The position numbers and the translations under genes were made by a program. The notes under the pieces are model-generated. The model had not been told where the DNA came from and searched no databases. It saw only the letters and a program-made list of their open reading frames with translations. Below, piece by piece: positions 1,294-25,790 of a stretch of 46,586 bases of DNA. Numbering within the stretch: the first letter of the stretch is position 1; each line of letters opens with the position of its first letter. The DNA is from a virus, in IMG/VR virus record IMGVR_UViG_3300030090_002649, positions 1 to 46,586 of that record; one strand, 5' to 3'.

Positions 1294-1402
1294 AATAGAA
1301 TTATACATTGAAAACATAATAAAGTGTAGAAAACAGAGAAAAGCGATATTGCAAAACAAAAAGGCTAAGGAGGCCAAAATAAAATGGCAAATGATACAAT
1401 AA
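1274..1402 (+). CDS. Tiny basic protein (42 aa) bridging into the Ubl gene
   Basis: The ATG at 1274 has GAGGAGG six bases upstream, overlaps the previous gene by 20 bases and runs 19 bases into the ubiquitin-like gene. The product begins MNFSEDKIEL and has a Lys/Arg/Ala-rich helical second half. This overlap pattern (ribosome site inside the previous gene, stop inside the next) matches the real small genes elsewhere in the window. It may mainly couple translation of the Ubl to upstream genes. No function can be assigned. Confidence 0.5.
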   Translation: MNFSEDKIELYIENIIKCRKQRKAILQNKKAKEAKIKWQMIQ

Positions 1403-1596
1403 CAATCAACTTATTACAAAACGGAGAGTTCAGTCCTAGAGATACATCATCTACAACAGTAGGCGAATTAAGGAACGAACTAGAAATACCATCAGATGCA
1501 AATGTAATGGTAGGTGGAACTATCAGACAGAACGACTTTGTTCTAGAAGATGGTGCGTTAGTTGCTTATGCGAGCAATAATAAAGTTGGTGGATAA
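1384..1596 (+). CDS. Ubiquitin-like modifier ending in Gly-Gly (70 aa)
   Basis: The length and pattern suit a beta-grasp fold: an initial beta-hairpin (TITINLLQNGEF), a helix starting TVGELRNEL (about residues 25-33), then short strands (NVMVGG, DFVLEDG, ALVAYAS). The protein ends VGG, so G69-G70 is the mature C-terminus expected of a modifier activated by an E1, and no trimming protease is needed. Immediately downstream are E2-, JAB- and E1-like genes, which makes the modifier role much stronger than the sequence alone would. The ribosome site AGGAGG is about 10 bases upstream. Alternatives are a ThiS/MoaD-type sulfur carrier, but no cofactor or sulfur-transfer genes are nearby. Confidence 0.8.
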   Translation: MANDTITINLLQNGEFSPRDTSSTTVGELRNELEIPSDANVMVGGTIRQNDFVLEDGALVAYASNNKVGG

Positions 1597-1606
1597 TAGA
1601 TAATAA

Positions 1607-1666
1607 TATAAAGCCCTGTGAGTCTCACGTGAGTATGAAATACGGCTACCGAGCTTGGGCTTTATA
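1607..1666 (+). ncRNA. Structured intergenic element C (cloverleaf-like)
   Basis: A perfect 10-bp stem (1607-1616 with 1657-1666) encloses 40 nt that can form three miniature hairpins with 3-base loops: GTGA-GTC-TCAC (1618-1628), GTAT-GAA-ATAC (1633-1643) and CGG-CTA-CCG (1643-1651). The overall shape is a small four-way junction. It lies between the Ubl and E2-like genes, 16 bases before the latter's ribosome site. It shares ACGGCTA (1642-1648) with element A. It is too short, and lacks the conserved bases, for a tRNA. Confidence 0.6.
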
Positions 1667-1689
1667 AAATAAAACGATAAGGAGAAAAG

Positions 1690-3159
1690 ATGATAGAAAT
1701 ATATGATGGAAGAAGAGATAGAAAAGTAAGTGAAATAGATTTTATTAAGAATTTAAGTCAAGAACAATTAAATAAAGTAGCTGTTGGGCCTCAAGATAGA
1801 TTATTAGAATTAATTAAATATTTTAATGAAGTATTTCAATATGCAAAGATTGAAGGTAGAATAGATGTTACTAATAAATGGGCTTGGAAACGTGGTTCTT
1901 ATGATGTTATGAGAGAGTATTTAAATGATAAATTGCAAATAAATAAAAAAGCTATGTCAATGTCTAAAATATTAGAAAGAGCTCAACACAATGCTAATTT
2001 CTTAGGTTATATGCGTAAGAAATCATATCAATTAGAATCAGAAAGACGCAAACTCATAAATATGGGCATTCCTAGAGATGTAGATACTGATAAATTTCAA
2101 AGTATGTGCATAGATATGGCAGAAAAAATAGAAAATGCTTGCAATAATGCTAATAACATTATAGAGAATGTAAACTTAAAGCCATATATAGGTATAAATA
2201 GTAGCGATGAAATAATGCTTTATTTAGATATTATGCTAACAGGTCTAAATATGAGTATAGTTCAAGATTCAACAATAGTAGAAACTAACAAATTATCACC
2301 AATTAGAATAATGGTAAATGTTGATTTTAGGAAACTATTAAATAATCAAATGTATACTGTAAATTTTAAGGGCAAATATATAGATGATTATCATATGTTT
2401 CCTTATTTAAATTCAGAAACTTATTATCGTAATTGGGGTAATGTATGCTTAGACAGACATCACGAAGATTTTGTAAGAGCATTTAAAAAGTTAGATTTTG
2501 TTAGTATGTCAATGATATTAATGCAATGGGCTCAATATTATAATGTTGGACACTCTAATCCATATAGTCAGCCATATCTTTTACATTATGGTATGCCTAA
2601 AGACAAAAGTCAATCTTATAAACAATTGTTTGTAGCTGGTACAATTCAAAGTACTTGCCAAACAACTCAAAATAGAATGACTCAAGACTCTTCTGGAATA
2701 GACAAACTTGTATCTAGCAAAAAGTTATGTCAAGATATTGAATGTCAATATATAGGTAATTGTGATATTTACGAAACATATAATCGAAAAATAAATCTAT
2801 ATAATAAACATAAATATTTAGGCGATGCTATATATATGGAACTTGTAAATCATGCAATAGTTAATGATTTTGACCAAGAAGCGGTATCAAGCATGTTTGA
2901 ATCAATAACTGGGCAATATATATCTTATTATGCTAATGGAAATGATTTGATTTCAAAAGAAGAATATCTAAATCTTTGGTATGATAAGTTTTTAATATAT
3001 TTTGCAACAACATACGAAAAGAATGCTAATGCTTATTTATATGATTATTTAATAAATAATAGATTATTAGAGAAAGCAGAAATAAAAACAGAGAATACAG
3101 ACACAGATAATATAAAACAGATGATGATGGCCTGGGCTACATCAGAAGGAGCAAGATAA
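1690..3159 (+). CDS. E2-like ubiquitin-conjugating protein with large flanking regions (489 aa)
   Basis: The central region (about residues 190-300) resembles a prokaryotic E2/UBC domain. HMFPY (235-239) is followed by the active-site-like segment GNVCLDR with C253, L254, D255. After it come a predicted helix (FVRAFKKLDFVSMSMILMQW) and YYNVGHSNPY, recalling the CLDIL...L...DPNP...P order of eukaryotic E2s and the CLG...YN...SPY order of bacterial E2-like proteins. Residues 1-180 are helical and charged; the C-terminal third holds a Cys cluster (CQDIECQYIGNC) and helices, perhaps for substrate or partner binding. It would take the activated modifier from the E1 onto C253 and pass it to a target. 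Its stop overlaps the JAB start (TAATG). The E2 call rests on motif pattern and operon context; the flanks are unrecognised. Confidence 0.65.
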   Translation: MIEIYDGRRDRKVSEIDFIKNLSQEQLNKVAVGPQDRLLELIKYFNEVFQYAKIEGRIDVTNKWAWKRGSYDVMREYLNDKLQINKKAMSMSKILERAQHNANFLGYMRKKSYQLESERRKLINMGIPRDVDTDKFQSMCIDMAEKIENACNNANNIIENVNLKPYIGINSSDEIMLYLDIMLTGLNMSIVQDSTIVETNKLSPIRIMVNVDFRKLLNNQMYTVNFKGKYIDDYHMFPYLNSETYYRNWGNVCLDRHHEDFVRAFKKLDFVSMSMILMQWAQYYNVGHSNPYSQPYLLHYGMPKDKSQSYKQLFVAGTIQSTCQTTQNRMTQDSSGIDKLVSSKKLCQDIECQYIGNCDIYETYNRKINLYNKHKYLGDAIYMELVNHAIVNDFDQEAVSSMFESITGQYISYYANGNDLISKEEYLNLWYDKFLIYFATTYEKNANAYLYDYLINNRLLEKAEIKTENTDTDNIKQMMMAWATSEGAR

Positions 3160-4091
3160 TGAAGTTAGAAGAAGTGTTTTACATAAAAGAAAAAGACTGG
3201 TATAAATTACAAGGTTGGGCTACAATAGCGTATGAAGAAGATAAAAACGAAATATCTGGATTAATGACAGCAGTACCACAAGAAGACGGCAGATTCAAAT
3301 TAGGTGATGTAAGGATTCTTAAACAAAAGAACTCTAGCACTAATACTGAATTAGACGGTGATGCTGTTGCTGAATATACTATGAAGTTTGGTATGAAATA
3401 TAATAATCCAAATATGAAGTTTGTTTGGTGGCATTCACATCATACTATGGGAGCTTTCTGGTCTGGTACTGATGAAAATGAAATAGATGAATGGAAGAAC
3501 AATAGTTTTTCTTTGGCTTTAGTTATAAATCTTAAGGAGGAGTATAAATTCAGAGTTAGTGTATGGAATAACAATGGATTGCCAATAGAAGAACATATTG
3601 ATACTACTCTTACTATTGAAAGACCTAAGCCAAAAGTCAAAGTAACAGATGCTATGAAAGTAGAATATCAAAACCTTTGTTCTAATCTTCATCAGCCTGT
3701 TGTTGGAAATACAAATATCTGGGGTTGGGGTTATAACAGAATTAACACAAACCCTAGACAATTGACATTAGGACAAGAAAAAGAGCTAACATACGAAAAA
3801 GAATACGCAGCTGCATATGAACTATTAGAAAGCCTGCAAGATGACTTTGTAAGTGGTACTATTAAAGTAAAGGATTATAAAAAAGAAATAAAATCTTTTA
3901 ATAAACAATGCTTAGATAAGAAACTACCATTTAAAGCAAAAGTTATAAAAGGCAATGGTATTACAATAATGAATAAGCTGATGACTTTAATGCCAAACGA
4001 ATTGTTCGAATGGGATGATAATAGATTAAAGGATACGTATGAAGAGCGTGAATTTCAAAGAAACTATGGAGGATACACAGAATGGCTATAA
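3159..4091 (+). CDS. JAB/MPN+ (JAMM) metallo-isopeptidase (310 aa)
   Basis: The canonical JAMM zinc-protease motif is complete: E31 in NEISG, then H92-S93-H94 followed by seven residues, S102, two residues and D105. The catalytic domain covers about residues 1-140. The remaining 170 residues are unrecognised and helical, possibly for recognising the modifier or E2. In ubiquitin-type systems such enzymes cut the isopeptide bond between modifier and target or trim precursors. Because the Ubl here already ends in Gly-Gly, deconjugation is the likelier task. It overlaps both neighbours (E2 by 1 base, E1 by 10 bases), so it is translated with them. A RadC-like or tail-assembly (TAPK) JAB is less likely given the neighbours and the plus-strand location away from the tail genes. 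Confidence 0.85.
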   Translation: MKLEEVFYIKEKDWYKLQGWATIAYEEDKNEISGLMTAVPQEDGRFKLGDVRILKQKNSSTNTELDGDAVAEYTMKFGMKYNNPNMKFVWWHSHHTMGAFWSGTDENEIDEWKNNSFSLALVINLKEEYKFRVSVWNNNGLPIEEHIDTTLTIERPKPKVKVTDAMKVEYQNLCSNLHQPVVGNTNIWGWGYNRINTNPRQLTLGQEKELTYEKEYAAAYELLESLQDDFVSGTIKVKDYKKEIKSFNKQCLDKKLPFKAKVIKGNGITIMNKLMTLMPNELFEWDDNRLKDTYEEREFQRNYGGYTEWL

Positions 4092-4750
4092 ATATGAGAA
4101 GTAGAGGACTTGTAGATAATTTAAACAAATTCAACTTTCATATATTGGGTTGCGGTGCTATAGGTAGTGCCGCAGCTATCCAATTATGCAGGATGGGTGC
4201 AACAAAGTTTGCTTTATATGATAATGATAAAGTAGATACGGCTAACATAGGCGTATCACAGTACACAATGTACGATATAGATTATCCTAAAGTAGATATG
4301 TTACACGGAAAGTTAAAAGATATAACTATTGATTTAGAAGTTCAATGTATTGATGAAAAGTTTATCAATTATATACATATGAACAATGATGACATAATTA
4401 TATTAGGTTTTGACAGTATGCAATCTAGAATGGATGCAGTAAAAGCTATAAACAACTGGCAAGGATGTAAGCCATATGCTTTAATAGATGGTCGTATGGG
4501 TGCAGAACATTATCAACAATATGTTTTGCTAAGACCTACATTAAAAGACTATAAAAAGATATGGTATTCTGACGAGAATGGTAGTGAAGAGCCTTGCAAT
4601 ATGAAAGCTACTAGTTATTGTAGTAATATGAGTGGTAGTTTTATAGCAAATGCAGTAAGAAAAATAGTCAAAGAACAACCTTACGAGGATTTTGTCTCTT
4701 TTCATTTTCCTACTATGTCGATAGAAAAAAATAGTTGCATATTTAAATAA
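4082..4750 (+). CDS. E1-like ThiF/MoeB-family adenylating enzyme (222 aa)
   Basis: Rossmann-type ATP-binding protein. The glycine loop is GCGAIGS (G23, G25, G28), followed by the ribose-binding strand end ALYDNDKVD (D47, D49) and N55, as in ThiF, MoeB and the adenylation half of ubiquitin E1. Further family marks are D111 with R116, and D136-G-R138. C172 (EPCN) and C180 (SYC) are candidates for the Cys that accepts the modifier; which one acts cannot be decided here. At 222 aa it is a minimal E1 lacking a separate ubiquitin-fold domain. It would adenylate the Gly-Gly end of the 70-aa Ubl and hand it to the E2-like protein. The start at 4082 has GGAGG upstream; an in-frame ATG 12 bases later is possible. 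Confidence 0.85.
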   Translation: MAINMRSRGLVDNLNKFNFHILGCGAIGSAAAIQLCRMGATKFALYDNDKVDTANIGVSQYTMYDIDYPKVDMLHGKLKDITIDLEVQCIDEKFINYIHMNNDDIIILGFDSMQSRMDAVKAINNWQGCKPYALIDGRMGAEHYQQYVLLRPTLKDYKKIWYSDENGSEEPCNMKATSYCSNMSGSFIANAVRKIVKEQPYEDFVSFHFPTMSIEKNSCIFK

Positions 4751-4761
4751 TAAGTATTAAC

Positions 4762-4815
4762 TTAGTAAGCTTGAGGGAGTTAGCAATAACTCTCTTGAGC
4801 CCTTTCGTTAACTAA
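4762..4815 (+). ncRNA. Structured intergenic element D (GCAA tetraloop hairpin)
   Basis: Bases 4773-4782 and 4787-4796 form a 10-bp stem with two or three G-U pairs, closed by a GCAA (GNRA-type) tetraloop at 4783-4786. An outer TTAGT/ACTAA pairing (4762-4766 with 4811-4815) can enclose it. CTTGAG is repeated directly at 4770-4775 and 4794-4799, and GAGGG could alternatively pair with the CCCTT after the hairpin. It separates the conjugation cassette from the replication genes and ends just before the GGAGG of the next gene. Confidence 0.55.
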
Positions 4816-4829
4816 AAGAAGGAGGTGCA

Positions 4830-5501
4830 ATGTCACTGAAAAAAGTAAAAAGAAAAGCTATATCAAATGACCCTAAAGTAATGTTATTATATGGAGCTCC
4901 TAAAGTAGGTAAAACTACTGCTTTAAGTCAATTAGAAGATTGTTTAATAATTGATACAGAGCAAGGTGCTAATATGGTAGAAGGCTATATAGAGTCTGTA
5001 AACAATAGAGAAGAGTTGATTACGCTTTTAAGAAAGGCTCAAGAAGGCCACGACTATAAGTATGTAGCAATAGATACTATAGACAAAGTAGCTGAATGGG
5101 CAGAAGAAGCTGTATGTAACGAAGAACAAGTATCAGCTGTACAAGACTTAGCATTTGGCAAAGGCTTTGCGATGGTAAGAGAAAAAGTTCTAAATACAAT
5201 AAAAGCAGTTAAACAAATATTTCCTCATGTAATTATCATCGGACATAGGAAATGGGCGAGAGCCGTGGTAGACAGTAAAGCTATAGTAGAACCAGAAAGT
5301 CTAGATTTAACAGGTAAATTAAAGAATATGTTAATGGCAGACTGTGATGCTATAGGCTATGTTTATCGAGATGATGAAAAAGGCAAACTAATGATATCAT
5401 TTAAAGCAAATGAAGCGTTAGAAGCTGGTAGTAGAAGTCCTCATCTGAGAGGCAAAGACATCGAGTTAAAATGGAAAAGTATCTACAAAGGAGATAAATA
5501 A
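4830..5501 (+). CDS. Sak4-like RecA-fold ATPase, phage recombination (223 aa)
   Basis: P-loop NTPase with Walker A GAPKVGKTT (residues 22-30) and a Walker B-like strand YVAIDTID (D82, D85), then HVIIIGHRKWAR as a sensor region. Size and order match the AAA_24/Sak4 family of minimal RecA-related phage ATPases, which promote single-strand annealing with a partner single-strand binding protein. The next gene, overlapping by one base (TAATG), fits that partner, and the primase-helicase follows. It likely acts in recombination-dependent replication or repair in the host cytoplasm. A generic DnaB/RecA ATPase role is the alternative. Confidence 0.75.
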   Translation: MSLKKVKRKAISNDPKVMLLYGAPKVGKTTALSQLEDCLIIDTEQGANMVEGYIESVNNREELITLLRKAQEGHDYKYVAIDTIDKVAEWAEEAVCNEEQVSAVQDLAFGKGFAMVREKVLNTIKAVKQIFPHVIIIGHRKWARAVVDSKAIVEPESLDLTGKLKNMLMADCDAIGYVYRDDEKGKLMISFKANEALEAGSRSPHLRGKDIELKWKSIYKGDK

Positions 5502-6112
5502 TGGCGATATTCAAACCCGAAGTTGCAGAATTTAGCAACGATAATAATAAGTTCTTAGGCATAAATAAATTTGCTATAATGCATTTCGAAAATAAGTCAG
5601 GTATGTTTGATTGGGCTGACTTATACTTAGAAGTGGAAGTTAAACAAGAACATAGTGATTACAATAGAAAGTTACAGATAAAAGGCTCATTTGAAAAAGA
5701 TTCATCAGGTAATATAACTGGAGGTAGTGTATTAAAAAGATTATATAATTTCTTTGACGCTATAGGTTGTACTGCTGGAATCAATGTAAAAGGCGAATGG
5801 GAAGATGGAGAAGGTACTAAAATAGAAGATATATGTGATTATTTATCAACTAGATTTGTAGCTAGTTCTAATTCAGATTATGAACCTTCATCATACGATT
5901 ATATTGCTTATTTCTATAAAGAACAGCCTAAAAAGCCTGGTGCTAAAGCTTATACTAATGTATGGCCTAAAGTATATAGATATAGCGAAGACAATCAAAA
6001 GAAATTACAAAGTGATATCGATTGGTTGAAAGGCAAAGGTTATCTTAAAGAGTTAACAGATGAAGTTAAAACTGCTCCAGAAATGAATGGTAATGGTTTA
6101 GCTAATCTATGA
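5501..6112 (+). CDS. Putative single-stranded DNA-binding / recombination partner (203 aa)
   Basis: The protein resembles phage DUF669-type proteins that accompany Sak4-like ATPases: a beta-rich N-terminal half with alternating strands (ADLYLEVEV, KLQIKGSFEK), then a helix RLYNFFDAIGC, a further beta region to about residue 160, and a short Pro/Asn-rich tail. No acidic SSB-type C-terminal tip is present. It overlaps the Sak4-like gene by one base and the primase-helicase by four, so the three are made together. The ssDNA-binding role is inferred mostly from context; I see no diagnostic motif. Confidence 0.6.
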   Translation: MAIFKPEVAEFSNDNNKFLGINKFAIMHFENKSGMFDWADLYLEVEVKQEHSDYNRKLQIKGSFEKDSSGNITGGSVLKRLYNFFDAIGCTAGINVKGEWEDGEGTKIEDICDYLSTRFVASSNSDYEPSSYDYIAYFYKEQPKKPGAKAYTNVWPKVYRYSEDNQKKLQSDIDWLKGKGYLKELTDEVKTAPEMNGNGLANL

Positions 6113-7875
6113 ATTATGTTGAGATAGCTAGAGGTACACCTTTTAATAGAGGTATTATTATTCCTGTTAATAAACTTCATTCCTTTATGAGTCCGAATGA
6201 AGCCTTGTATCGCAGCGTTTATTTATATGACGAATCAGCTGTTGAATATGTAAAAGACAAAGGTAGTTTAAAGAATTACTTTGGTGTTAGATATATTGAC
6301 AAGATTCCCGTAGATATAGATAAACAAGACAGGAGTGATGAAAGAACTTTAGATATCTTGAGAGGTACTATCCTAGAGCTAGAAGAAGCTGACATTAGCA
6401 GTCGGAGCTATCAAGCTTACTTTTCTGGCTCTGGGTATCACCTTATTCTTTCTGGGGAGTTGTTTAATTTTAAGTCTGGTACAGATTTACCATTTATAGT
6501 CAAACAAACTATGAAGAAGTTGTTGCCTGGAATAGATTCTAGTATTTATATGAGAACTGGAATCTATAGGCTTCAACATACGTTAAATCAAAAAACAGAT
6601 TTATTTAAAATACCTTTGACAAATGATGAGGTATTAAACAAAGACCCTAAAGAAATCTTTGAGTTAGCTAAAAGTTCTAGGTTAGACTTTCAATACCATA
6701 TATTAGAAGCTAATGGAGAACTAGAAAAAAGAGTAGTAACAGAGGTTCCAGATATTAGAGTATTTAATAAAGTATCAGAACCTAGCAAAATAATACCTTG
6801 TGTTCAATCTATGCTTAACAATGGAGCAAGAGAAGGTAGTAGACATCTTACAGCTATGAGAATCATTAGCCATTTTAAAAGACACGGTATACCTAGTCAT
6901 TATGCAAAAGTATCTATGTTGCATTGGAATAACAAAAGTATGCCAGAATCAGCTATTATGGAAATGGTAGAAAATGTTTATAATAGAAATTATAAATATG
7001 GTTGTCAAGATACTATTATGTTAGAGCATTGCAAAACACAATGTATTCACTTTTCTAGAAAAGATTATTTAGTAGATATTAAATCATCTGATGAAATGCA
7101 AGGAGAGTTAGAAGAAAGATTAACTACTGATTTTAGTGGTAAAACAATAGATTTGGGAAGAGCATTAGGCTTAGACGTAGAATCTACTATTTATCCAGGC
7201 GAATTAGTAACAATCTTTGGTCCAACTGGTTCTAACAAGACTACATTTGCACAAAACTTAGCATTAGGCGTAGATTTTGTAAATGATAAAATTGTCAAAG
7301 AATGGCAAATACCAACGTTATTCTTAAGTTTAGAGCTATCTTCTTGGTATATGCACAGAAGACATTTACAAATAGTTTCTGGCAAAAGTAAAGACGAAGT
7401 AAACAACAATCATGAAGCTTTATATCAATCTCACAAAGATGAATTAGAGCATATTATGATACAAACAATATCTCCAACTTTAGATAAAATTTATGAAAAA
7501 GTCAGGGAATTACAACCACAATTAGTAATTGTAGATTATATAGATTTAGTAGATACTCCAGTTAGTTATAGAGGAGAATACGAAAAAATAAAGTATATAT
7601 CTCACGGATTATCTAATATGGCTGTAAACAATGATTTGATTGTAATACAGATATCTCAAGTAAGTAGAGAGTATAGCCGAAACGAAGTGTTAGATTTATA
7701 TGCTGGTAAAGGTAGTGGTGCAATAGAAAATGCATCAAGAAAAGTTATTGGTTTAAATGGTCAGTCAAAGTCTCCTAAAAGAGATGTAAGATTATTTAAA
7801 AATACTGATGGCGAACTATTTGACACACATGTAGAATGGACACCTAGTTTCAGATTAAGGAGGGTAAATGCGTAA
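6109..7875 (+). CDS. Primase-helicase: AEP-like primase fused to DnaB-type helicase (588 aa)
   Basis: The N-terminal third looks like an archaeo-eukaryotic primase/PrimPol: a DxD metal site in IPVDIDKQD (D69, D71), then YFSGSGYHLIL with the S-x-H element (S108-H111). Residues 230-315 resemble a primase C-terminal linker with C299, C308 and C312, perhaps zinc-binding. The C-terminal half is a RecA-like SF4 helicase: Walker A GPTGSNKTT (371-379), the LSLEL strand with E409, Walker B LVIVDYIDL (D476), and QISQVSR as motif H4. It would prime and unwind the phage genome at the fork. The four-base overlap with the upstream ssDNA-binding gene supports a replication operon. No DNA polymerase is inside the window. 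Confidence 0.8.
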   Translation: MNYVEIARGTPFNRGIIIPVNKLHSFMSPNEALYRSVYLYDESAVEYVKDKGSLKNYFGVRYIDKIPVDIDKQDRSDERTLDILRGTILELEEADISSRSYQAYFSGSGYHLILSGELFNFKSGTDLPFIVKQTMKKLLPGIDSSIYMRTGIYRLQHTLNQKTDLFKIPLTNDEVLNKDPKEIFELAKSSRLDFQYHILEANGELEKRVVTEVPDIRVFNKVSEPSKIIPCVQSMLNNGAREGSRHLTAMRIISHFKRHGIPSHYAKVSMLHWNNKSMPESAIMEMVENVYNRNYKYGCQDTIMLEHCKTQCIHFSRKDYLVDIKSSDEMQGELEERLTTDFSGKTIDLGRALGLDVESTIYPGELVTIFGPTGSNKTTFAQNLALGVDFVNDKIVKEWQIPTLFLSLELSSWYMHRRHLQIVSGKSKDEVNNNHEALYQSHKDELEHIMIQTISPTLDKIYEKVRELQPQLVIVDYIDLVDTPVSYRGEYEKIKYISHGLSNMAVNNDLIVIQISQVSREYSRNEVLDLYAGKGSGAIENASRKVIGLNGQSKSPKRDVRLFKNTDGELFDTHVEWTPSFRLRRVNA

Positions 7876-8136: not shown

Positions 8137-8643
8137 TTGAAAGCCAATGGCAATAAAGTGAAACGCTACTCAAAGCCTAAAAGGGGACGCAAGTCCCCTA
8201 AAGGGCTAACGATTTGGGAAGAAAAATTTAATAAAAAACTTAAAAAGCATCATAAACATTTTGCTAAAAAAGTATTTCATCGATTAATGAAAAAGTCGTC
8301 AACATTAAGAACGACTTTAAAGAGAAGGAGTAAAGAATATGAGGTCGAATTTAACATATCTCTTGCTGAAGTTAGAGAAATGCTTTACAAATCTTATGGA
8401 CGGAAGTGTAGGTATTGCAATACGAATTTACTTGTCAATAATATGGCATGTGACCATATTCATCCTCTTTCTTTGGGTGGTGTATCTACTCCTGAAAATC
8501 TCCAAATGATTTGTATGCGTTGTAATACGAGAAAAGGCCCTTTAACAGACAAAGATTATGGAAAGCTGTTAAAATGGCTTTCTAGACAAAAAGAAGACTT
8601 AACAAAATACGTATTAAGGAAATTATCAAGTAGAGATTTTTAA
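8137..8643 (+). CDS. HNH endonuclease (168 aa)
   Basis: The C-terminal half carries a complete HNH fold: CRYC (C91, C94) and CMRC (C126, C129) bind structural zinc, CDHIHPLSLGG supplies D106-H107, and N121 and N130 complete the motif (ENLQ...CNTRKG). Residues 1-70 are extremely Lys/Arg-rich and probably bind DNA. TTG is used as start because GAGGAG lies 8 bases upstream and no ATG fits. It may be a free-standing homing nuclease or a nicking/packaging accessory. It is flanked by hairpin elements on both sides and is far from the terminase genes, which favours a mobile (homing) origin. Confidence 0.85.
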   Translation: MKANGNKVKRYSKPKRGRKSPKGLTIWEEKFNKKLKKHHKHFAKKVFHRLMKKSSTLRTTLKRRSKEYEVEFNISLAEVREMLYKSYGRKCRYCNTNLLVNNMACDHIHPLSLGGVSTPENLQMICMRCNTRKGPLTDKDYGKLLKWLSRQKEDLTKYVLRKLSSRDF

Positions 8644-8853: not shown

Positions 8854-8955
8854 ATGGAAGTATCGAAAATAATTTTAGGAATTTCATTAATTACAGGAGC
8901 TATGACAGTAGCTATTGTAGCATATGAATATTTTAAAGATAACTATAAAGGATAG
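8854..8955 (+). CDS. Single-span membrane microprotein (33 aa)
   Basis: Translation from the ATG at 8854 (GGAGG eight bases upstream) gives 33 residues: a short polar start MEVSK, one hydrophobic segment of about 20 residues (from I6 to about V22), then a charged tail YEYFKDNYKG. This is a typical single transmembrane helix. It ends one base before the radical SAM gene start and carries that gene's ribosome site (AAAGGA) in its last codons, so the two are coupled. Function unknown. Confidence 0.6.
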   Translation: MEVSKIILGISLITGAMTVAIVAYEYFKDNYKG

Positions 8956-8956
8956 A

Positions 8957-9820
8957 ATGATAAAAAAAGTAAATAGAAAATCTATGATTATTAGAGATTC
9001 TGGACGTAGTAGTGACTTTATTACACCTAGCTTTGGCTATGGATGTCTGTATAAATGTAACTATTGTTATATGCGTAGACGTGTAAAAAAAGGTGTTACA
9101 ATAGCATCAAATGCACACGAAATACTTGACGCTTTGGATAGGCACTTATGGCTATTAAAATGGCCTAAAATACCTAATCAAACGCACGAAAAGTATTATA
9201 CATACGATTTTAGTTGTAATGAAGATTATGTCTTGCACTTAAAGTACCATCAATGGGAGTATTTGTTTGATTATTTCAAAGATAATCCTAAAGCTATGGG
9301 TACAGCTGCAACAAAATATGTTAATAAAAATATGTTGAGCTATGATGCAAATAGAAAAGTTCGTATAAGGTTTAGTATTATGCCTCAAGAACTATCAGAC
9401 AAACTAGAACCTGGAACATCTAAGATTATAGATAGAATAAAAGCAGTAAATAACTTTTACGAAGCGGGTTATGATGTTCATTTAAATTACTCACCTATTA
9501 TAGTATACGATAATTTTGTAGAAGGTTATACAAAGTTGTTTAAGCTAGTAGACGAAATAGTAGATGACAGTATAAAACAAAAAGTAAAAGCAGAATGTAT
9601 ATTTTTGACACACAATAAAGAAATGCATGAATACAATATTAAAAATGAAATAAAAGGTGAGGAACTGTTATGGAATCCAGAATATCAAGAAGATAAAACT
9701 TCTGAATATGGTGGAGAAAATATAAGATATAATCGCTTTTATAAGAATAAGTGTATTACAGCGTTTAAATTTTTACATAATGAAAATGTAAGTTGGCAAA
9801 AAATACGTTACATATTTTAA
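8957..9820 (+). CDS. Radical SAM enzyme, spore photoproduct lyase-like (287 aa)
   Basis: The CxxxCxxC cluster motif (C30, C34, C37 in GYGCLYKCNYCYM) binds the iron-sulfur cluster used to cleave S-adenosylmethionine. The order of later motifs follows SplB: YDFSCNED with C87 at the place of the hydrogen-donor Cys, a FRYTK-like AATKYVNK segment, then RFSIMPQE..LEPGTS and AGYDVHLNYSPII. SplB repairs the UV thymine lesion 5-thyminyl-5,6-dihydrothymine in spores; in a phage this could be UV-damage repair of viral DNA or another radical reaction on nucleotides. The start at 8957 is chosen over an in-frame ATG 33 bases upstream because it follows the coupled 33-aa gene and its AAAGGA. Confidence 0.75.
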   Translation: MIKKVNRKSMIIRDSGRSSDFITPSFGYGCLYKCNYCYMRRRVKKGVTIASNAHEILDALDRHLWLLKWPKIPNQTHEKYYTYDFSCNEDYVLHLKYHQWEYLFDYFKDNPKAMGTAATKYVNKNMLSYDANRKVRIRFSIMPQELSDKLEPGTSKIIDRIKAVNNFYEAGYDVHLNYSPIIVYDNFVEGYTKLFKLVDEIVDDSIKQKVKAECIFLTHNKEMHEYNIKNEIKGEELLWNPEYQEDKTSEYGGENIRYNRFYKNKCITAFKFLHNENVSWQKIRYIF

Positions 9821-12085: not shown

Positions 12086-13026
12086 ATAAATGGGTTTGGA
12101 GATATTTTCGTTCTTCCTGGAAATCCTGTTATAGGTAACCTGCTAAATAAGCCTGACATACCAGTATATCCTGTCTCTTTTTCTGTTTGTAATATCAATC
12201 TAATTAAATCATCATGATATTTTTTTACTTCTTGTAAATTCTTAGGATTTACGGGACCAGTACCAAAATCCCCTAAATAAGTAGCAACAACATCGTCAGG
12301 TCTACCAGGTTTAGGCATTAATCTAGCGTCAAATGCTCCCTTTTGACCATGAACCATTCCTCTGTATTTGTAATCACCTCCTAAAGCTTTATCTGTAGCA
12401 AAAGTATTTCGATTAGGAGTAGTTCTTCTAGATATATCAAAAATTCTCATACCAGCGCTAGTATCATATACCCTGAATTTTGCTTTTTTATTATTTTTAG
12501 TATATTCAACCATATTATTAATTGCTGCTCTTCTTGCTTGCTCTCTAGGACCTTTAAATACAACTTGTTCAGGAACGTGTGATTTAGCGTCTTCAAAATC
12601 AATATCTATCATTGGAGTTTTTTTGAACCTTGCCCAATAAGATGGACTTGCTTTACTATATGCTGGATTATAAAAAATACCTTTTCTTAATGCTACATTT
12701 GCAGTAGGTTGTTTTATTTGTTCTGCAGACATATCATTTAATTGGCTCCATAAAATTTCTGAATCTTTTTTTGCAAAAGGGCCTGATTGGTCCATTAAAT
12801 CAAGGTTTCTTGTTTTGTTACGCCAGATATCAAATTTTCTAGTATCTTTAAATATAGCTATATTGGGATTAATATTTGTTATTCTAGCAGCTAAATAAGG
12901 AGCTTTATTTTTAGTTTTAGGATTAGCTAAAGATTTAATTAATTCTATTCCTAGGTTGCGAGTTTTAGGGTCTCGCATAGCAGCTTTCCCTGTAATTTTA
13001 AATAAATGTGTCATCCATTTTTGCAT
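12082..13026 (-). CDS. Last gene of virion operon, possible primase-like fold (314 aa)
   Basis: Not recognised with confidence. Residues 138-200 read TPMIDIDFED (D141, D143) followed by KFRVYDTSAGMRIF, and at 232-242 FDARLMPKPGR. This order (hDhD, a strand plus SxG(x)R turn, then a basic strand) is reminiscent of archaeo-eukaryotic primase folds, with Arg194 where the usual His would be, so it could be an inactive or distant relative. The N-terminal 100 residues are basic and helical. It begins at the base where the giant polymerase-like gene ends, so it is translated with it and may be its virion partner. Confidence 0.55.
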   Translation of the reverse strand: MQKWMTHLFKITGKAAMRDPKTRNLGIELIKSLANPKTKNKAPYLAARITNINPNIAIFKDTRKFDIWRNKTRNLDLMDQSGPFAKKDSEILWSQLNDMSAEQIKQPTANVALRKGIFYNPAYSKASPSYWARFKKTPMIDIDFEDAKSHVPEQVVFKGPREQARRAAINNMVEYTKNNKKAKFRVYDTSAGMRIFDISRRTTPNRNTFATDKALGGDYKYRGMVHGQKGAFDARLMPKPGRPDDVVATYLGDFGTGPVNPKNLQEVKKYHDDLIRLILQTEKETGYTGMSGLFSRLPITGFPGRTKISPNPFI

Positions 13027-16000
13027 TAAAAACCTACCTTAGGTTGATTATATCTAACACCTTCTTCAATCTTTTTCTTTCTTTCTGTAGAAAACTTTTG
13101 CAAATCTCTTAAGGGCATACCAGCCATTTTTTCTAATAATCTAGAAGGATTTTCTATCAAACCTTTACCTGGTTGAACTAAATCTCTAATTATTCTGCCA
13201 AATGGAAACATTGTATATACTTGATAATCACTAAATTTAGTGTAATCATCTTTTGCCCACTCCATTATACCTGCTATAGGAAATCTTGTAATAGGAGGGG
13301 TAATCATTTGCAATGGAGCAATAGCAGTAGGTAACACGCCAAAAAAAGCTCTTTCTCTATCTTTTTCATTTCCAAATAACCAATCAGCTGTATCTTGAAA
13401 CCAGCTTAAAGGCTGTGGCAATGCATTGTCAAACAAACTATACATAAACATATTACCTAAAGCCAATACCAATAAATCAATTGTCATAGTTCTTTGAAAT
13501 TTTTCATATGCTGAAGTACCAGGTTTAAAACCGTATCTAGCAGCTTCTCTTGTAATATCATTACGAAAACGTGTCGAATTCCACGCATATAATTGAAACC
13601 TAGACATAACCTTACCTAGAGCAGTTCTCGCAAACATAGGCCTTTGTGGAGCTTCATATAAGAATTGCGTAGCTTTTACACCTTTTTTACCCATCTCTAT
13701 TAAAAACGGATGTTCAGGGTCGGTTATAGCTCCTCCGAACCTTTCCCAAGCTCTTATATAATGTGCCATAAAAGCATCTCTTCTTAAAGTTCTTTCAGGT
13801 ATAGACATAAATTTAGAAGCTACAGACATCATTCTATCACTTAACTTATACTTTTTACCTAAAGATAATACTTCTTTTCTTTCTATAGGCTCTTTTGAAT
13901 TAATCTTCGAAGACAATTCTCCTATAAAACTTTCAATACTCTTTTTTGTATTAGCATCTTGACCCAAACCTAATTCGTGAATCATAAACTCTGGAACAAC
14001 ACCTTTTTTAACTACCCAATTTTCTACATCTTGCAAACTATTAAAATTAGGATTAATTCTTTTTAAATATTTTATATCTCTAGCTTTCATAAACGCACCA
14101 TGACCTGCTGATTGTATTGTATGCAAGCTACCACCAAATATATTAGTAACAGCAGATTTAGGATGCGCAAGTAAAGAAGCTAACTCAAACTTCGCCTCCA
14201 TATTTGACCAATGTCTAATATCATTAAACGTAAAATCTTTTAATTCTTTAGGCAAATCACTTTCTCTTATACCTAGTTTTTCTCTAACTTTATTAACTCT
14301 ATCTAATACTGTGCTATCTGCAAACCAAGCATATGGAGTTCCTTTCAGTTTCATATCAGGGTCGTCATACCATTTCTTAGGAATAACATCTGGTTGTCCC
14401 ATAGCACCTTGTACATAAAGTTTAAAATACCTTTCCCATTTACTAGCTAGCTTATTCCCAAATTTCTTTGTCATTCTTTCTTTAGCGTCATGAATAGTTT
14501 TTCTTGACATAATTTGATTCATTTGTTTAAAATAAGTAGAAGTAAGATTTCTAGCATATGCATTCATTACACTCATATCTTTAGACCATCCGCCTACATG
14601 ACCTTCTCTTTGCATCATAGAACCAAAACTAGTGTTCATATCTGTCCATTTTACAGTTTGAGCAACTTTTCCTTTCTTTTTAGCAATATCTTTTAAACCT
14701 TGATTGATTTCTAATATATCTACTTTGTCAAAATCCTGTATATCTTGAAACTCCCATTCTCCTGTAATAGTATTATGCCTCATTAACAAGCTTTGTATTC
14801 TAGATTTCTTTTGTTTTTCATTTAAATTAGGATTATTTCTTATAAAATCTAAAGTCCTTTTTATGTTTAATTCAGATGTCCTTTTATCAAAAAACATATG
14901 AGGCCAGTAATAAGAAAAATCAATAGGTTTTGTAGCTTTAATTTTCCAGTTTTTATATGTTGCTTTCTGTTCAGGAGTTTTAGCCAAATCATACATCATT
15001 GAACGCTGTATATGCCTCATTCCGTCAATACCTAAATTAATAGGAATATCATCTCCTCTTTCAAGAGACTTAGTCATATCTTGTACAAATAATTTCCAAT
15101 TCATTCTAGGCTGTGTTTTGCTTTCGTCAAAATATTTTCCAGTTTTATACCTATTTATTGATTTGCCATCACCAGACATTAGTGGAAAAAATGATTCAAA
15201 TCTTTCAGCAACTTTCTTTTTAATACCAGTTAAACTTTTTTCTTTATTCCCGTTTACAATTTCAAAACCAGTAGCTTGTATTCTTTTATTATTATCATTC
15301 AATAAAGTAAACTCTTTGTCTTTTAATTTAGGCCAATTAAACTCTTTTTCTGTCGCTGCTCTAGATTCATCATAATTAAGCCTGTAATGTTCTTTCATAT
15401 CAGATTCTAAATTACGTCTATTATCAATGCTTTGTTTCATCCCAAGTTCTGCTTGACTTACAGCTATTTGAAATAAACCGTTGCCTTCTTTAAGTTCTGA
15501 TATATTTATAAATTGATTTTCAATATCTTTTGCTAAAACTTCAGCTTTACCAATAGCCAAACTATTTGCTTCGTGTGCTTGGTTCATCAGCATTTCTAAG
15601 AAATAAGTAGGTCTTCTAACATAGCCTTCTTTAATTTTTCCACTTTTAGTCAAATACCATTGTTTTTGTTTCAACCATTTAATATCATAAGCCATTAGTT
15701 CTCTATTAGTAGTCGCTGGAAACATTCCATAATATCTTTTCATTATTTCTGGAGTAGGATTTTTTCTAAGATTTTGAAACCAAGTTCCAGATTCCACTTC
15801 TCTTAAAAAGTTTCTTACTTGAACAAAGTCTTGTTTAGTAAAAGCATTTAAATCTTTACCCATTCCCTCAGGGTCTACCGCAGCTGTAATCCCTCTCATT
15901 TGTTCATTTAAGTCTGGAATATTATTACCTAATTTATTATTATATCTTTTTAATATAGTAGCTATTTCAGTAATAACAGCTTTATCTTTTGCAGTAACTT

Positions 16001-19000
16001 CGCCTTTTTTAATCCCAGCATATCCTTCTCCTTTGTGAGCAGACATAACTAAATCATCAGCTAAATTTTGCTCATTTATCGGAGCTCTATCTAGCACATT
16101 TGATACTCCTAAAGTAGTAGCTTCAAACGTAGGTTTGTCTAATGGAGTCCAAATTTTATTAAAAACATTATTCATAGATTTTAAATGATTTTGTATAGCT
16201 ATGGGAGATATTTCTTCAGAATTAAATGCTAATCTACTTTGAGTAGTTCTTGCAGTTTCTTTTATTATTTTACTTACTAATTCTCTAAATACAGGACTTC
16301 CTTTTTTTGGAGGCAAAGCTTTTATTAATCTATTTACTTTATTCATATCACCTCTATCTAAAGTGCCTATAAATAAATGGTCAAACAATTCTCTTTGTGC
16401 ATCAGTTTTTAATCCATCTTTATATTGTCTTATTTTAGCATCTAATTGCTTTTGGTCCCAGACAGTAGACCTTTTATCTCCTTGTATATCTTGTAAGTTT
16501 TTCTTTATACCTAATAATGCATTTACAAATTCTATGTGTTCTTTATCTTTAGCAGTTCCAGCAATAGCATCATAGTCTAATTGCATTCTTTCTTTTCTAG
16601 ACAAATAGCTTCTAGCTTTAAACTTAGCTACCGCATTACTAATGCTTTTTAAATCTTGAATAGGCATTCTTTCTTTTTCAAGTATTCTTTTAACAGATTT
16701 TATTGTAGCCATAGTAGCAACATCATTAGATAAAAAGTCTTCTGCTTGTCTATTCATTTGCTCTAATATAGAAAGTCTTTCTTTGTAGCTATACAATCTA
16801 GCTAATCTAGCTTCTTTTCCACCATATCCTTCAAATTCTTTGCCCCAAACAGAATGTTTAACAACATTTAAAAACTCTTTTAAACTTGCAGGGTCGTCTC
16901 TTAATGCTAATTTTCTTCTAACAGCAGGGTCATGTAATTCGTGAACTAAATTTGCTTTTATATGGTCATTATAAGTAACTGTAAATGTACTTCTATTCAT
17001 AGCATCTTTAAGCCAATTGCCAAACTTTCCTTTTTTATCAGTAACTATATCGTTTATTTCTGTATATGTTTGTTCTATAGAGCCTCTATCAACTCTTCTA
17101 AATAAATTATCACTCCAATCTAATCCTTCTAAAGTATCAACTATTTTTGGTAATATAGTATTTATTTGTTTCTTGCTAAGCATTCCTATATCAGAAGCCA
17201 AATGATTTACTTCATCCATAGAATAGTTCCTGCCTTCACTCCAATTTCTTCCAAAATAAGCACTGTTCATATTTTTAAATGCACCTAACAAAGATGGAGG
17301 TATACTAAAATCACTTCTATCTCCATAATAATCTCCCATAGACCAATTTTTAGGCTCTTCTTTTAGTTTAATGTATTTTTTACTTTTAGGATTATATTTT
17401 TCAAACTTAACATTAAAATATGAATCATACATAGTCTTAAAAAAGTGACTATGTTCTCTTAATCCAGCCTCATCCATAGGGTCTGATGCAAAAGCTGTCT
17501 GAGCTCTTGCCATTTCTCTTTGATATGCTAAATCTTTTTTGCCAAATTTAGGAGTAACAGTTACTCTAAAAGTACCACCATTTTTCCCTCTTTTAAATAC
17601 AGTAAATACATCTTTTCTACCATCTGCTTCCATTAAAGCATTAAATGTAGACTTCATTACTTGAGATTGAGATACAGCTAATCCTAACATATCTCTACCT
17701 TTCACAGCTCCTTGAGAAGCCATCATTCTTGAAAAAGGAGAGTAATATAAAGCTTTACTTTCTTTTAATGGATTTCCTGCGCCTGAACCTATTGTTAATA
17801 CTTGTGCAAATGTTTGTCCTTTATAAGGGCCATGTTGTATAACTGCATTTTTATTATCTTCAACGTGTGTTTGAGTTTTATTATAGTATTCATTTTTATT
17901 TGCGTGTATTGCATCTAGCCAAGATTCTTTCATACCATAACCAGTTCCATCTTTATTCTTTCCACCAAAATAGACAAATGCTTCATCTCCATCAAGGTCA
18001 GCACCACCAAGTGCTCTCATAGTTTTAGAATTAAGCATTACTCCATGGCCTTTTCTCCCTGTAAAGCCTTTAAATTGCAGTTTATGCGCTCCAGATATAC
18101 TATCCATAGGAACACGCAAAACTAATGCATTCCAGTATTTTGCAAAGTCTGGATTATTTTGTTGTTTGTCCCATAATTCCCCAAGTTTTTTATATTTTCC
18201 ATTGTCTAATCTTATTTTAGTGTTTCTATAAGCATCATCTAAATAAAATATAGTATCGTTTGTATCTAATTCTTTAAAATCTTTTTGCATCCATTTGTCA
18301 TAAGGTCTCATTCTAGCTAATAAGGAATTTTCTATTTTAGGCCTAGTAACTGATTTGACAAAGTAATTATGTAGCACCGATGCTTTATAATCTCTTACAA
18401 ATTTATGCATAAAAGCAGGATATCCTGTTTGTCCAGCAGCATTTGCCTCTTCTCCTACTATAGCTGAATTTTTTAACAATCTATCTATAGGAGATACTGC
18501 TTCTGTAAATTGCCTTATTCTTTCAGCTCTTTGTTCTGCAGTTGTTTCTCCGTCTTGAAAAGACATTTCAATATCTTTCTCTACTATTCTTAACATTCTT
18601 TGCAATGCTAATTCTGCAAATCTTTCAGCCCCAGGAGTCTTTAAAGTTTTAATTAGTTTAGGCGTAGATAATTCTTCTAAATTTTCTACTAAAAAATCTA
18701 TTTTATCTTCAGATTTAGTTAATCTGTATTCTTCTAATACTTTATTGTAGGCTTCATTACCATCAAAGTTCTTTTTAATAGTCTCTTGGAATACATCTTC
18801 TATGACATACTTGTCCATTGGTGTGCTAGTAAATTGATGCAAATTTGTAAATAGCTGTTTAACCAGTATTTGTTTTTGCTCCATATGAGGGTCTTGTATA
18901 ACTGAAGTGCTATATTTAACACTTTCTGGGTTAAGTTCATATATTTTACCTCCAGTAAATTCTAAACCTCCTTGTTGAACTACGTTTAAAGGTTTAAAAC

Positions 19001-22000
19001 TATCTGTTTTTTTATCATAAGTGTATCCTTTAGCTGCTGCAAATTCAGCTCTAGACCTGTAAGGGTCAAAATTAGGTATATCAATTCTTTTTACATTCTT
19101 TTTAGCTGTAGGAGAGTATACCATATTATTTATAAAAACATCCCATTCTGCTTCTATTTGCTCTTCTGTTCTAAAAGTTCTTAATTGACCTTCTTTAATA
19201 TTATAGTCGCCAATTAATCTTTCACCAGTTTGTTTAGCTGCAGATTTGTATACAATCATATGCACACCCGCATCTTTCATTTGCTGAGTTGCTTCTGGTC
19301 CAACTGCATGCATCATATACTTGCCTAATAAAGCACCTTTATTAACTTCTCCTTTAGCAGTATATTCAGGTGTATTATCTATAATAAAGGACTTTTGTTG
19401 TCCAGAAGCTGGATGACCTGCGTCTTTATTAACAACGTCTATATAATCATCTCTTACTAATATAGCTCCATCTTGGTCTTCTCCTAATTGAGTACTTCTT
19501 GCTTTTAATACAGCTTTTTTTAAAGCATCTGGAAGTAGCGGGTCATTTACTAACATGTATTTTACATTGCCTCTAGGAGACAAATCATCTAATATAATTT
19601 TTCCATTTTCGTCTACAGCATTTTTAATAAAATCTTTACTACCACCATATCCATTTGTCATCCATATTTGGTGTCTTTTATTAAAGGCTACTGCGCTACC
19701 TATAAATCCATCGCCCATTATCTTATTTATGTTTTCAGGCGTAAATTTGTATCCATTTAAAGACAAATCATATCTCATGTTAGATACTACCATTCTTTCA
19801 AAATCTTTTGGTTTTACGCCATATTTGAGCTCCATAAGCTTTTTTTCATTATTTAAGTTAGCAAGAATGTTTTTATCTTTGGTGCCTCTTCTTATAGCAT
19901 TTATTAGCTGTCTGTATTGCAATTTAATGCCTGTAGCACTTTCACTTTTTAAAGCTGGATGTAATTTGGCAAATACTATTCTACCTTTATCTCCTTGTCC
20001 ACCAAAAGGATATAAATTGTCTGACTTATAAACTTTTCTTATGATATCGCCTATAAGATTATCTGCAGCTTTTTCAGCATCTTCTTCTGTATATCTTTTT
20101 TTTGTAGCAGGGTCTATTTCATTAAATTGTAAGTGCTTTGCTAATCTGTTTAAAGGAACGTCTATAGTAAAGTTTCGTTTACTTTTTCTAGCTACAGTAT
20201 CAAATATAACAATAGGGCTTTTACTGGCTCCTTTTTCAAGTTTTCCACCTTCATTTAAATAAACTTCTTCTAAAACTTTAGGAGATTCTACTTGTCTTAT
20301 TGACATACCTGTAGCAGTTGTAGGTCTGTTAGGGTCTGTGAATCCTGGAACTTCATTTGCTCCACCAGTAGTTTTAATTTTTATAACTTGTTTACCTAAA
20401 TTAACTTCTCTAATCCATTTTCTTAATTCTAATTTTCCTTTTTCAGATAATTCAAATTTCTTATTATTTGTGCTAAAAACTCTTTCCATAACTTTAACAG
20501 CTTGGTCAATATTTACATTTTTATCACCTTTTTTAGAATATTTTCTAACAATAGTATCTACTACCTTACCCATATCTAGCATACTATTTCTTTTACTTTG
20601 TCCAGTATTACCTTTGTCCCACAATTCTTTCAAATGATTATTAGAAAACATCTCTCCTTTTTTCATCAAAGTGTTGTTTTGAGGAAGAGAGCCTGTGTCA
20701 ATATCATTTATAATAACACCACTTGTCATATCAATATACTGTGTAGATTCTAATCCTTTATGTTTAAATTGTATATCTTTGTATATATCATCTATTTCTT
20801 TAGATAGCTCTTTTTCCTGTTGGGCAAGTTCTCTTGTTCTAACTTTTCCTAAACTAGCATCTTTTAAATCAGCTCTTACATCTTTTAAAAGGAGTTTCTT
20901 TTTATCTATCTGTCTATTTAATTCACCTATGTTTTCTAAAGTTCTTTGATGCATTAACTTAGTTTCTTCTTCGGTCAATCCTTTGTCTTTAGTAGGAGTT
21001 TTCTTTTTTCCAAAAGTTGCATCAGCTACAGCTATCATAGCTTTATGTTCAGGGGACCCTGCTCGTATTTTTCTACTTCCTATTACAGCAGGATTTCTTC
21101 TTAATTTAGGAGTGTAGTTTATAGCCTTAAATCTATTAACTTCAGGAGTCCATCTAAACCAACTTCTTTCTGGTGGGTGGTATACATAAACTTCTTGTAA
21201 CCCTTTGTCTAAAGCCATTTGAACAGCCCATCCAGTACCGCCTTTTACTGTTCTTTTATTTCCTTCTAATTCAGCAACAGCGTATACAGAATTAGCACCT
21301 TTTATTTGAAAATAGTTTCTAGCTATTAATTCATAAGCCCAATCACCATATTTACTTATTTCGCCTCTTCTTAAAGTTCTGTTAGCTTCTTCTAATGCTG
21401 GACCAGCTTCTAATAATTCTTTGCTACTAACTCCTCTGTCAACACCTTTTACATTACCTGTTTTTAAAGCTTCAAAAAACTCTGGTATTGTTTTTCTATG
21501 AGCAGTAGTTTCTGGCATCATATGTATAGTTGCAAAACCTTTTTTATCTAAAACAGTACTCCAAAGTCTATCAGCACCTTTAGCTCCTCCAGACAAAGCT
21601 ACTCCTAAAGTATCATCAGCTTTATATTTAGTTCTTTTTTGTATGCCTTTTCTAATAGCAGACAAAGCTTTATACCCATCTGTAGTCCAATTTTCTTTAG
21701 GTATTTGGTCTTTTATGCCGTGCAAGTCCATAAGAAGTTCTGCTTGAGCTAAGTTACTTTTTCTTGTACCGTGTTCTAGTTTTCCTAGTTCTAACATTTC
21801 TTTTCTTACAATTTCAGGAAACTCTTCAAATCTTTCCCAATCTTTTACTTGTCTTTCATTGTCAAGCTTAGGGTCTTTCCTCATAGCCTTCCTAAACTCT
21901 TTCATATTATTTACAGCTTGCATTTTAAACCAAGGCATTTCTTTAGAGCCAAAGTATGCCCCAGCCAAATACTCATATATTTGTTCGGGTGTTGTAGCTC

Positions 22001-25046: not shown

Positions 25047-25790
25047 TTATTTCCATAAAAATACTCTCATATACCCATCTTCAAATTTATCCCATCCATT
25101 TGCCATAGGGTCATTATAGACTCCATATGTAGTATATATTTTAGTATATAACCAATATTGCATAGTAGTTTTTGTCCATAAAGTACTAACTCCAGTCCAA
25201 CTATCTTGGTGCCTCATTCCTACATCAAGATTTAATAAAAATAATTGAGTAGGGTCTCCTGAATTATAATCAGCATCTGGAACAAACCAAGCTGTAGCTA
25301 ATTTAGGATATACTCCTAAGTTATGTGTAAGTGTTCCTCCACCAGCACTGCCAGAAGACACATCTATCCATCCGCTATCATAATCAGCTCTGGGAGCTAT
25401 AAATTTACCAGCTTTTTCATCATATATAGTTTGCTCTGCTAATTTATCACCTGTAGTAGTGTCGTTTGTCTCTATTTCGTCAATAGATTTATCTTGGTCT
25501 TTAAACGCAGGTTTGCTTTTAAATTTAACAGCACTATCTCCTATTACTGGAGTTTTCCAACCTTCTTCTGTTCTTATTTCAAAGGTATAACTTTTATCTT
25601 TATTCTGAGTTATTTGAATATCACCAGTCTTTCCTTCTTCGTCTGATACTTCAGTTTCTGCTTTATTTGAAACAGATATAGTCAAATCATTTAATGCTTC
25701 TTCTACTTCTTGTAACGCTTTTTGAACATCATCAAATGAAGATATTTTAGAAGATATTCTCAAACTATGTTCAAATTCTTTTTGTATCAT
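25047..25790 (-). CDS. Tail fibre-like / receptor-contact protein candidate (247 aa)
   Basis: The N-terminus forms a coiled coil (about residues 15-45). A middle part resembles short fibre repeats (GDIQITQNKDKSYTFEIR). The C-terminal 100 residues are a beta-rich, aromatic-rich domain beginning DSGWIDVSSGS and THNLGVYPK, a pattern common at the distal ends of phage fibres. It overlaps the stop of the giant tail gene by 4 bases. A receptor-binding role is inferred from the modular pattern and position; no enzymatic motif is visible. Confidence 0.55.
   Translation of the reverse strand: MIQKEFEHSLRISSKISSFDDVQKALQEVEEALNDLTISVSNKAETEVSDEEGKTGDIQITQNKDKSYTFEIRTEEGWKTPVIGDSAVKFKSKPAFKDQDKSIDEIETNDTTTGDKLAEQTIYDEKAGKFIAPRADYDSGWIDVSSGSAGGGTLTHNLGVYPKLATAWFVPDADYNSGDPTQLFLLNLDVGMRHQDSWTGVSTLWTKTTMQYWLYTKIYTTYGVYNDPMANGWDKFEDGYMRVFLWK

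Follow-up and report, generated by a model that had tools for sequence, protein, structure and literature searches.

A stretch of DNA of 46,586 nucleotides from a marine virus (the 46.6-kb IMG/VR virus record IMGVR_UViG_3300030090_002649), hereafter the window, carries at positions 1384-4750 four consecutive genes whose products resemble the parts of a ubiquitin-like conjugation system: a ubiquitin-like modifier (Ubl), an E2-like protein, a JAB/JAMM metallopeptidase and an E1-like protein. Family scans of the window found a P22-type portal, an SU10-type capsid protein, a terminase, a Sak4-like annealing protein and a primase/helicase, and we therefore assign it to a tailed phage. A preliminary description of the DNA, made from its letters only, had claimed that the virus itself carries all four parts among replication genes; the four open reading frames were found with exactly agreeing coordinates, in the order UBL-E2-JAB-E1, and Sak4-like and primase/helicase genes lie nearby. 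The features of the region are as follows.

1384-1596, plus strand: ubiquitin-like modifier of 70 amino acids, with a single predicted beta-grasp domain and the C terminus K-V-G-G (AlphaFold, Foldseek, conservation)
1607-1666, plus strand: intergenic hairpin in the spacer between the modifier and E2-like genes, with 10-nucleotide arms at 1607-1616 and 1657-1666 that are 100% complementary (inverted repeat; RNA fold z -2.1)
1690-3159, plus strand: E2-like (UBC-like) protein of 489 amino acids, with the predicted catalytic Cys253 encoded at 2446-2448 (conserved residues, AlphaFold)
3159-4091, plus strand: JAB/JAMM metallopeptidase of 310 amino acids, with E31 encoded at 3249-3251 and HSHHTMGAFWSGTD at 3432-3473 (Pfam, PADLOC, PDB, JAMM residues)
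4082-4750, plus strand: E1-like protein of 222 amino acids with a single ThiF domain, its glycine loop at 4148-4168 and the candidate thioester Cys172 encoded at 4595-4597 (Pfam, PDB, conservation)
4830-5501, plus strand: Sak4-like single-stranded-DNA-annealing ATPase (PHROG 124, 9.7e-33)
6109-7875, plus strand: primase/DnaB-type helicase (PHROG 19, 8e-30; Pfam DnaB_C, 6e-14)

The start of the JAB gene overlaps the stop of the E2 gene by 1 nucleotide, and the JAB and E1 genes overlap by 10 nucleotides, which is a mark of one translational unit. The cassette lies in a plus-strand early/replication block, with the structural genes apart from it on the minus strand.

The E1-like protein consists of a single ThiF domain (Pfam ThiF, 4.3e-17) with PDB relatives that include Uba5, ThiF, MoeB, Cap2 and BubCD, and it matches the PADLOC E1-E2 model (9e-15), where it resembles the E1 half of Cap2. 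Its glycine loop GCGAIGS, already described as intact, is invariant in 47/47 sequences. D111, R116, D136 and C172 do not vary in any of 39 phage E1s, drawn from both the marine and the crAss-type groups described below, and a zinc CxxC was not found in these 39 proteins. We take C172 to occupy the position of the reactive Cys184 of ThiF. The JAB protein matches Pfam Prok-JAB at 7.6e-4, below the curated cut-off, and PADLOC JAB at 2.8e-4, and its nearest PDB relative is Rpn11 (1.7e-4). The JAMM residues first read from the window, E31, H92, H94, S102 and D105, are all present with the spacing H-S-H-x7-S-x2-D, and they are invariant in the alignment rows that cover them (36-40).

The AlphaFold model of the modifier (pLDDT 80) has the element order E-E-H-E-E-E of a beta-grasp fold. 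Its best Foldseek match is Mth1743 (E 2.4e-4, prob 1.00), followed by SUMO1, ISG15 and TtuB (E about 0.002-0.01, prob 1.00), and in Pfam it reaches ThiS at 0.15. The K-V-G-G end noted in the preliminary description was confirmed, and across the relatives 24/24 Ubls have a C-terminal GG or GG with a short tail; the tail comprises 2-11 residues in a few of these Ubls (loci L040 and L053, QA; L051, KKQ; and L031). On two of the three counts that the preliminary description had held to be decisive, a beta-grasp modifier and a Gly-Gly end kept in homologous phages, the results were favourable.

In the alignment of the E2-like proteins, Cys253, Trp280, Tyr284 and Pro291 are invariant (33/33), as is Pro238 of an [HFY]PY motif (32/32). 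Cys253 stands in the context xVC(L/F/Y)D; an [HFY]PY motif comes before it, and two helices and an invariant Pro come after it. This layout is much like that of eukaryotic E2s, which have HPN...GxxCLD...P. In the AlphaFold model (pLDDT 86.9), a UBC-like core covers about residues 133-300 and the flanks are mainly helical; the core runs from a helix through a strand meander to the Cys and further helices, an order like that of UBC and UEV domains, and C253 comes just after the strand 250-252. The model is suggestive of a UBC/UEV-like fold. A structure search of BFVD with the 489-residue protein returned a 420-residue viral protein (E 1.8e-3, prob 1.00), which is probably Fpv gp54, judged by protein length, and a crAss protein, cr128_1 (0.016). 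Prok-E2_D (PF14460), which we take to be PRTRC protein B, had no match in the window, and the control genomes likewise gave none.

A search for the same gene order in other phages, as the preliminary description had suggested, recovered it widely. The E1 is encoded by 45 further viral contigs, and in every one of the 23 distinct other marine viral contigs long enough for gene order to be read, the order is UBL-E2-JAB-E1-Sak4. A seeming exception, L018 (IMG/VR contig 3300030333_002508, 1-1600), was rejected as an apparently chimeric assembly in which a C-terminal piece of E2 is in frame with an unrelated coding sequence. Median pairwise identity among the marine relatives is 78% for E1, 72% for Ubl, 60% for JAB and 34% for E2, and E2 is less conserved than Ubl in 253/253 pairs. 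Between the window and locus L002, dN/dS is 0.08 for Ubl, 0.35 for E2, 0.16 for JAB and 0.08 for E1; these values are well below 1 and indicate purifying selection on all four genes. That there is a real four-part system here, kept by selection, is close to certain. A constant modifier beside a strongly divergent E2 would suit a specificity role of E2 towards varying targets.

The cassette is also not confined to marine phages. A tblastn search with the E1 of the window reached crAss-like and Flavobacterium phages, where the adjoining genes make up the same four-part cassette, its order unchanged; all four stand complete at 53 of the 57 crAss/Flavobacterium-type loci, the other four loci being truncated. 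Among the matches listed in a scan with the JAB profile, a locus set that overlaps the first, all four genes occur in order at 78/85 loci. The scan of genome contigs with the JAB profile yielded metagenome-assembled genome contigs and, on the chromosome of Chitinophaga sp. YR573, a locus with these genes in this order that belongs to the second locus set and is also present in IMG/VR as virus (L116, L171); the scan of genome contigs with the marine E1 gave no match. In crAss001, the Ubl is gp79, the E2-like protein gp78, the metalloprotease gp77 and the protein annotated as thiamine biosynthesis protein gp76; the cassette lies in the replication block, between UDG/gp75 and the primase (gp80), and Sak4 is gp84. 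Sak4 and primase neighbours are common to both groups. The PHROGs entry for the corresponding crAss-type families is unknown function. The first description missed this breadth: it had one odd phage in view, and the cassette is widespread, crAss-like phages included.

The crAss-type parts have features of their own. Their Ubls have an N-terminal beta-grasp-like domain that runs to an invariant Gly (70/70, with Ser before it in 66) and is followed by 1-171 residues. In L172, L120, L116 and L158 this tail measures 1-3 residues, as in eukaryotic Ubl precursors, and such tails make maturation by the JAB likely, as for a peptidase-processed precursor. In crAss-like phages, the tails (for example, L008 2761-3396) often contain a conserved motif, R.EAY..IK..GLQD....GKN[YF]T, which could be a SAP/HeH-like DNA-binding segment. 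Whereas the Ubl of the window ends in GG, the crAss Ubl has SG and a C-terminal extension, and the crAss E2-like protein, which cannot be aligned by sequence with that of the window, has its invariant Cys in HSH..C-x-G (46/46 in one set, 81/82 in a second). The JAMM motif is intact in both groups. In hhalign comparisons of the marine and crAss-type profiles, E1 matched at 1.5e-34, JAB at 1e-10 and Ubl at 7e-4, the last matching only its own counterpart. By E1, JAB and Ubl we regard the two kinds of cassette as one family; the E2s do not match by sequence, and the fold matches named above (1.8e-3 and 0.016) may point the same way. A tree of E1s has a branch with 96/91 support that parts the phage E1s, those of the two groups together, from nine plasmid and bacterial E1s, including those of CBASS and multiubiquitin systems. 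The bacterial sample is small, the root is not known and long branches were flagged, so we favour, rather than take as proven, a phage lineage of E1s that is separate from the sampled plasmid and bacterial ones.

Together, these sequence data suggest that the four genes probably encode a reversible system of Ubl conjugation and deconjugation. In the steps that we infer, the E1 would adenylate the Ubl at its C-terminal glycine, with Cys172 as the probable carrier site; the Ubl would next be handed to Cys253 in the E2-like protein, and from there to a target protein. The JAB would strip the tag again and, where residues trail the Gly, as they do in most crAss-like phages and in a few of the marine ones, also trim the Ubl to maturity. 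A separate E3 was not seen in the cassette, and the choice of target therefore probably lies with the flanks of the E2, which are large and evolve fast. For targets and purpose we offer a guess: the constant place of the cassette in a replication and recombination block suggests that proteins tied to replication, whether of the phage or of its host, are acted on early to midway in infection. Its neighbours Sak4 and primase likewise point towards replication or recombination, or else towards host proteins affected early. A core role in the replication module has about an even chance of being right. Taken as a whole, we lean slightly towards a conserved viral Ubl conjugation system, distinct from the sampled host defences, with a core replication-module function across large tailed-phage groups, crAss-like phages from the human gut among them, that reversibly modifies replication or host proteins during infection.

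Several points weigh against conjugation. Most crAss-type Ubls are long-tailed, and their cleavage after the Gly is assumed. The E2-like protein has no relative by sequence in Pfam, PHROGs, PADLOC, NCBIfam or the PDB and fits no known E2 family, and the marine and crAss-type E2 profiles showed no significant match to each other, even with 89 sequences and with the domain alone. In the Foldseek search of the PDB, its best cluster consisted of UEV domains, without reaching significance (E 0.51; TM to target of about 0.4). The earlier claim of a UBC domain around C253 is partly supported, by the confident model, the UBC/UEV-like order and the place of C253 after a strand, while the PDB search falls short of significance. 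The E2 fold is the weakest link, and the main claim could still fall on it. Were the 489-residue protein an unrelated adaptor, with the E1 conjugating the Ubl directly or the Ubl acting non-covalently, the missing family match and the insignificant PDB search would both fit. This is unlikely, however, given the invariant Cys that follows [HFY]PY in an xVC(L/F/Y)D setting, the conserved helix and Pro behind it, the PDB search, whose best matches are UEV domains more often than any other fold, and the position of the gene, next to those for Ubl and JAB wherever the locus is complete. The combination of ThiF, Ubl and JAB also fits sulfur-carrier chemistry, another point against conjugation: the E1 would make a Ubl thiocarboxylate as the sulfur source for modification of phage tRNA, nucleotides or a cofactor, the JAB would trim the Ubl, and the 489-residue protein would be a sulfur-accepting enzyme and not an E2. 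The minimal ThiF-type domain of the E1, the presence of TtuB among the Foldseek relatives of the Ubl and the JABs that also accompany ThiS/MoaD-type operons (PMC1779556) are in keeping with such chemistry, whereas the annotated neighbours include no rhodanese, IscS-like or known thiolation gene, the E1 lacks the zinc CxxC, and the 489-residue protein, with its [HFY]PY..C layout and UBC/UEV-like strand order, is not of a P-loop or MoaE-type fold. We consider this improbable.

Since bacteria turn Ubl systems on phages (PMC10097602, PMC11153139; for Bil, the review PMC11354881), the cassette might instead disarm Bil- or CBASS-type immunity, by tagging or untagging host proteins or by depleting the enzymes of host Ubl defence. 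The fast divergence of E2, with its dN/dS of 0.35, would be compatible with such a conflict, but essentially every complete relative has the cassette, and it keeps one place within the replication block rather than lying in a variable anti-defence island; the Ubl and E1 evolve slowly, and the phage E1s branch apart from the sampled CBASS-type E1s. Counter-defence is in our judgement a minority prospect and unlikely. The JAB and Ubl pairs of lambda-type tail clusters (PMC1779556) raise a further idea, that in virion maturation capsid or tail proteins receive the Ubl, which would act as a scaffold or mark them for assembly. We think this very unlikely: the cassette is in the plus-strand early/replication block, away from the minus-strand structural genes, and the main text of the crAss001 virion paper contains no ThiF, metalloprotease or ubiquitin.

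The hairpin between the Ubl and E2 genes, which had been thought to set the cassette apart, is real, and relatives have longer stems with variable cores in its place. It was rejected as a part of the cassette, as similar hairpins fill other spacers of the genome and occur at many unrelated positions. Long hairpins stand in intergenic spacers just before ribosome-binding sites at 392-481, 899-990, 1607-1666 and 4768-4801 of the window, and also in the UBL-E2 spacers of relatives, where a stem of 13-15 base pairs surrounds a core that varies. Of the core types, one (GAGCCAATAACTGGTCC ... ATGTGAGGCTC) recurs in at least 120 viral contigs, most of them marine (L200-L277 included), with a span of 34-180 nucleotides; among the copies listed, the 3' half is present in 126/127, and a Shine-Dalgarno-like site and a start follow within 40 nucleotides in 85/127. 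No Rfam family matched this core in the loci scanned, and hairpins with it are possibly an undescribed structured RNA. A nearly identical inner hairpin (CCTGTAACGTTGCAAAA.CAGGTTAT...) is nested in different outer stems in two distant relatives, at L003 4772-4935 and L051 3151-3320, as if hairpin modules had been exchanged between phages; the E1 of the window is 78% identical to that of L003 and 56% to that of L051. Elsewhere in the window, a small Cys-rich, zinc-ribbon-like protein is encoded directly upstream of the Ubl (1021-1293), as it is in L002, L003 and L004, and the early block also contains a spore photoproduct lyase-like radical SAM gene (8924-9820; Pfam SPL, 1.5e-21) that adjoins an HNH endonuclease gene (8137-8643). 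Two giant proteins are encoded on the minus strand, one of 3255 amino acids (13026-22793) with a DprA-like stretch (PHROG 768, 1.7e-11) and one of 2648 amino acids (25787-33733) without a family match.

What is known of bacterial Ubl systems is mainly their use as weapons against phages. A separate lineage owned by phages, retained by nearly all members of several phage groups and set among replication genes, would, if true, mean that viruses of bacteria run ubiquitin-like regulation of their own, and four genes of crAss-like phages that are annotated as hypothetical, metalloprotease or thiamine biosynthesis would gain a function. The presence of the cassette in the cultured crAss001 and in Flavobacterium phages makes the idea testable now. 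A literature search for a phage Ubl/E1/E2/JAB cassette or a crAss ThiF, with preprints and most subscription papers beyond its reach, found no description, and the main texts of the crAss cMAG, crAss001 and crAss001 virion papers make no mention of the cassette.

Among known systems, a close parallel is BilABCD, named in the order Ubl, E2, JAB and E1, in which the JAB also trims the Ubl precursor (PMC11354881). It has the same four activities in parallel order, and we therefore reject gene order as a distinguishing feature, as which it had first been put forward; type 6d operons have the same components as well (Iyer 2006). The differences lie in the proteins and their setting: BilA has two Ubl domains, like ISG15, whereas the Ubl of the window is a single 70-residue domain; BilD has an inactive and an active adenylation domain, whereas the E1 of the window is one ThiF domain of 222 residues; BilB has a CEHH motif (C, +6 E, +8 H, +13 H; PMC11354881), whereas E2s of the window type have an acid (E/D) at +6 but no matching histidines, with F/V/I at +8 and, for the most part, K at +13; and the cassette sits in the replication block of virus genomes. 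The type 6d operons (Iyer et al. 2006) comprise Ubl, JAB, E1, E2 and an alpha-helical protein (PMC1779556), and share with the cassette a stand-alone short Ubl with a C-terminal Gly and separate E2, JAB and E1 genes (PMC1779556). In their own E2s, however, the Cys is followed by an absolutely conserved His, which is not seen in the window type, and the window has no separate helical gene. We take the type 6d operons to be the plasmid PRTRC cassette, and the PRTRC models stayed far under their cut-offs (PRTRC_A 0.009, 15.7 versus 101.8; PRTRC_ThiF 8e-6, 25.4 versus 144.75). CBASS Cap2/Cap3 is similar in the E1 half of Cap2 and in having a JAB partner, but there E2 and E1 are fused, whereas the window has separate E1 and E2 genes and a dedicated Ubl; a CBASS-type nucleotidyltransferase was not found among the neighbouring window proteins scanned. 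The lambda tail proteins I and K pair a phage Ubl with a JAB-NlpC protein (PMC1779556), a likeness limited to phage Ubl and JAB, as theirs is a structural tail module without E1 or E2 (PMC1779556). The cassette probably works like the BilABCD and type 6d systems and belongs to none of the systems named here.

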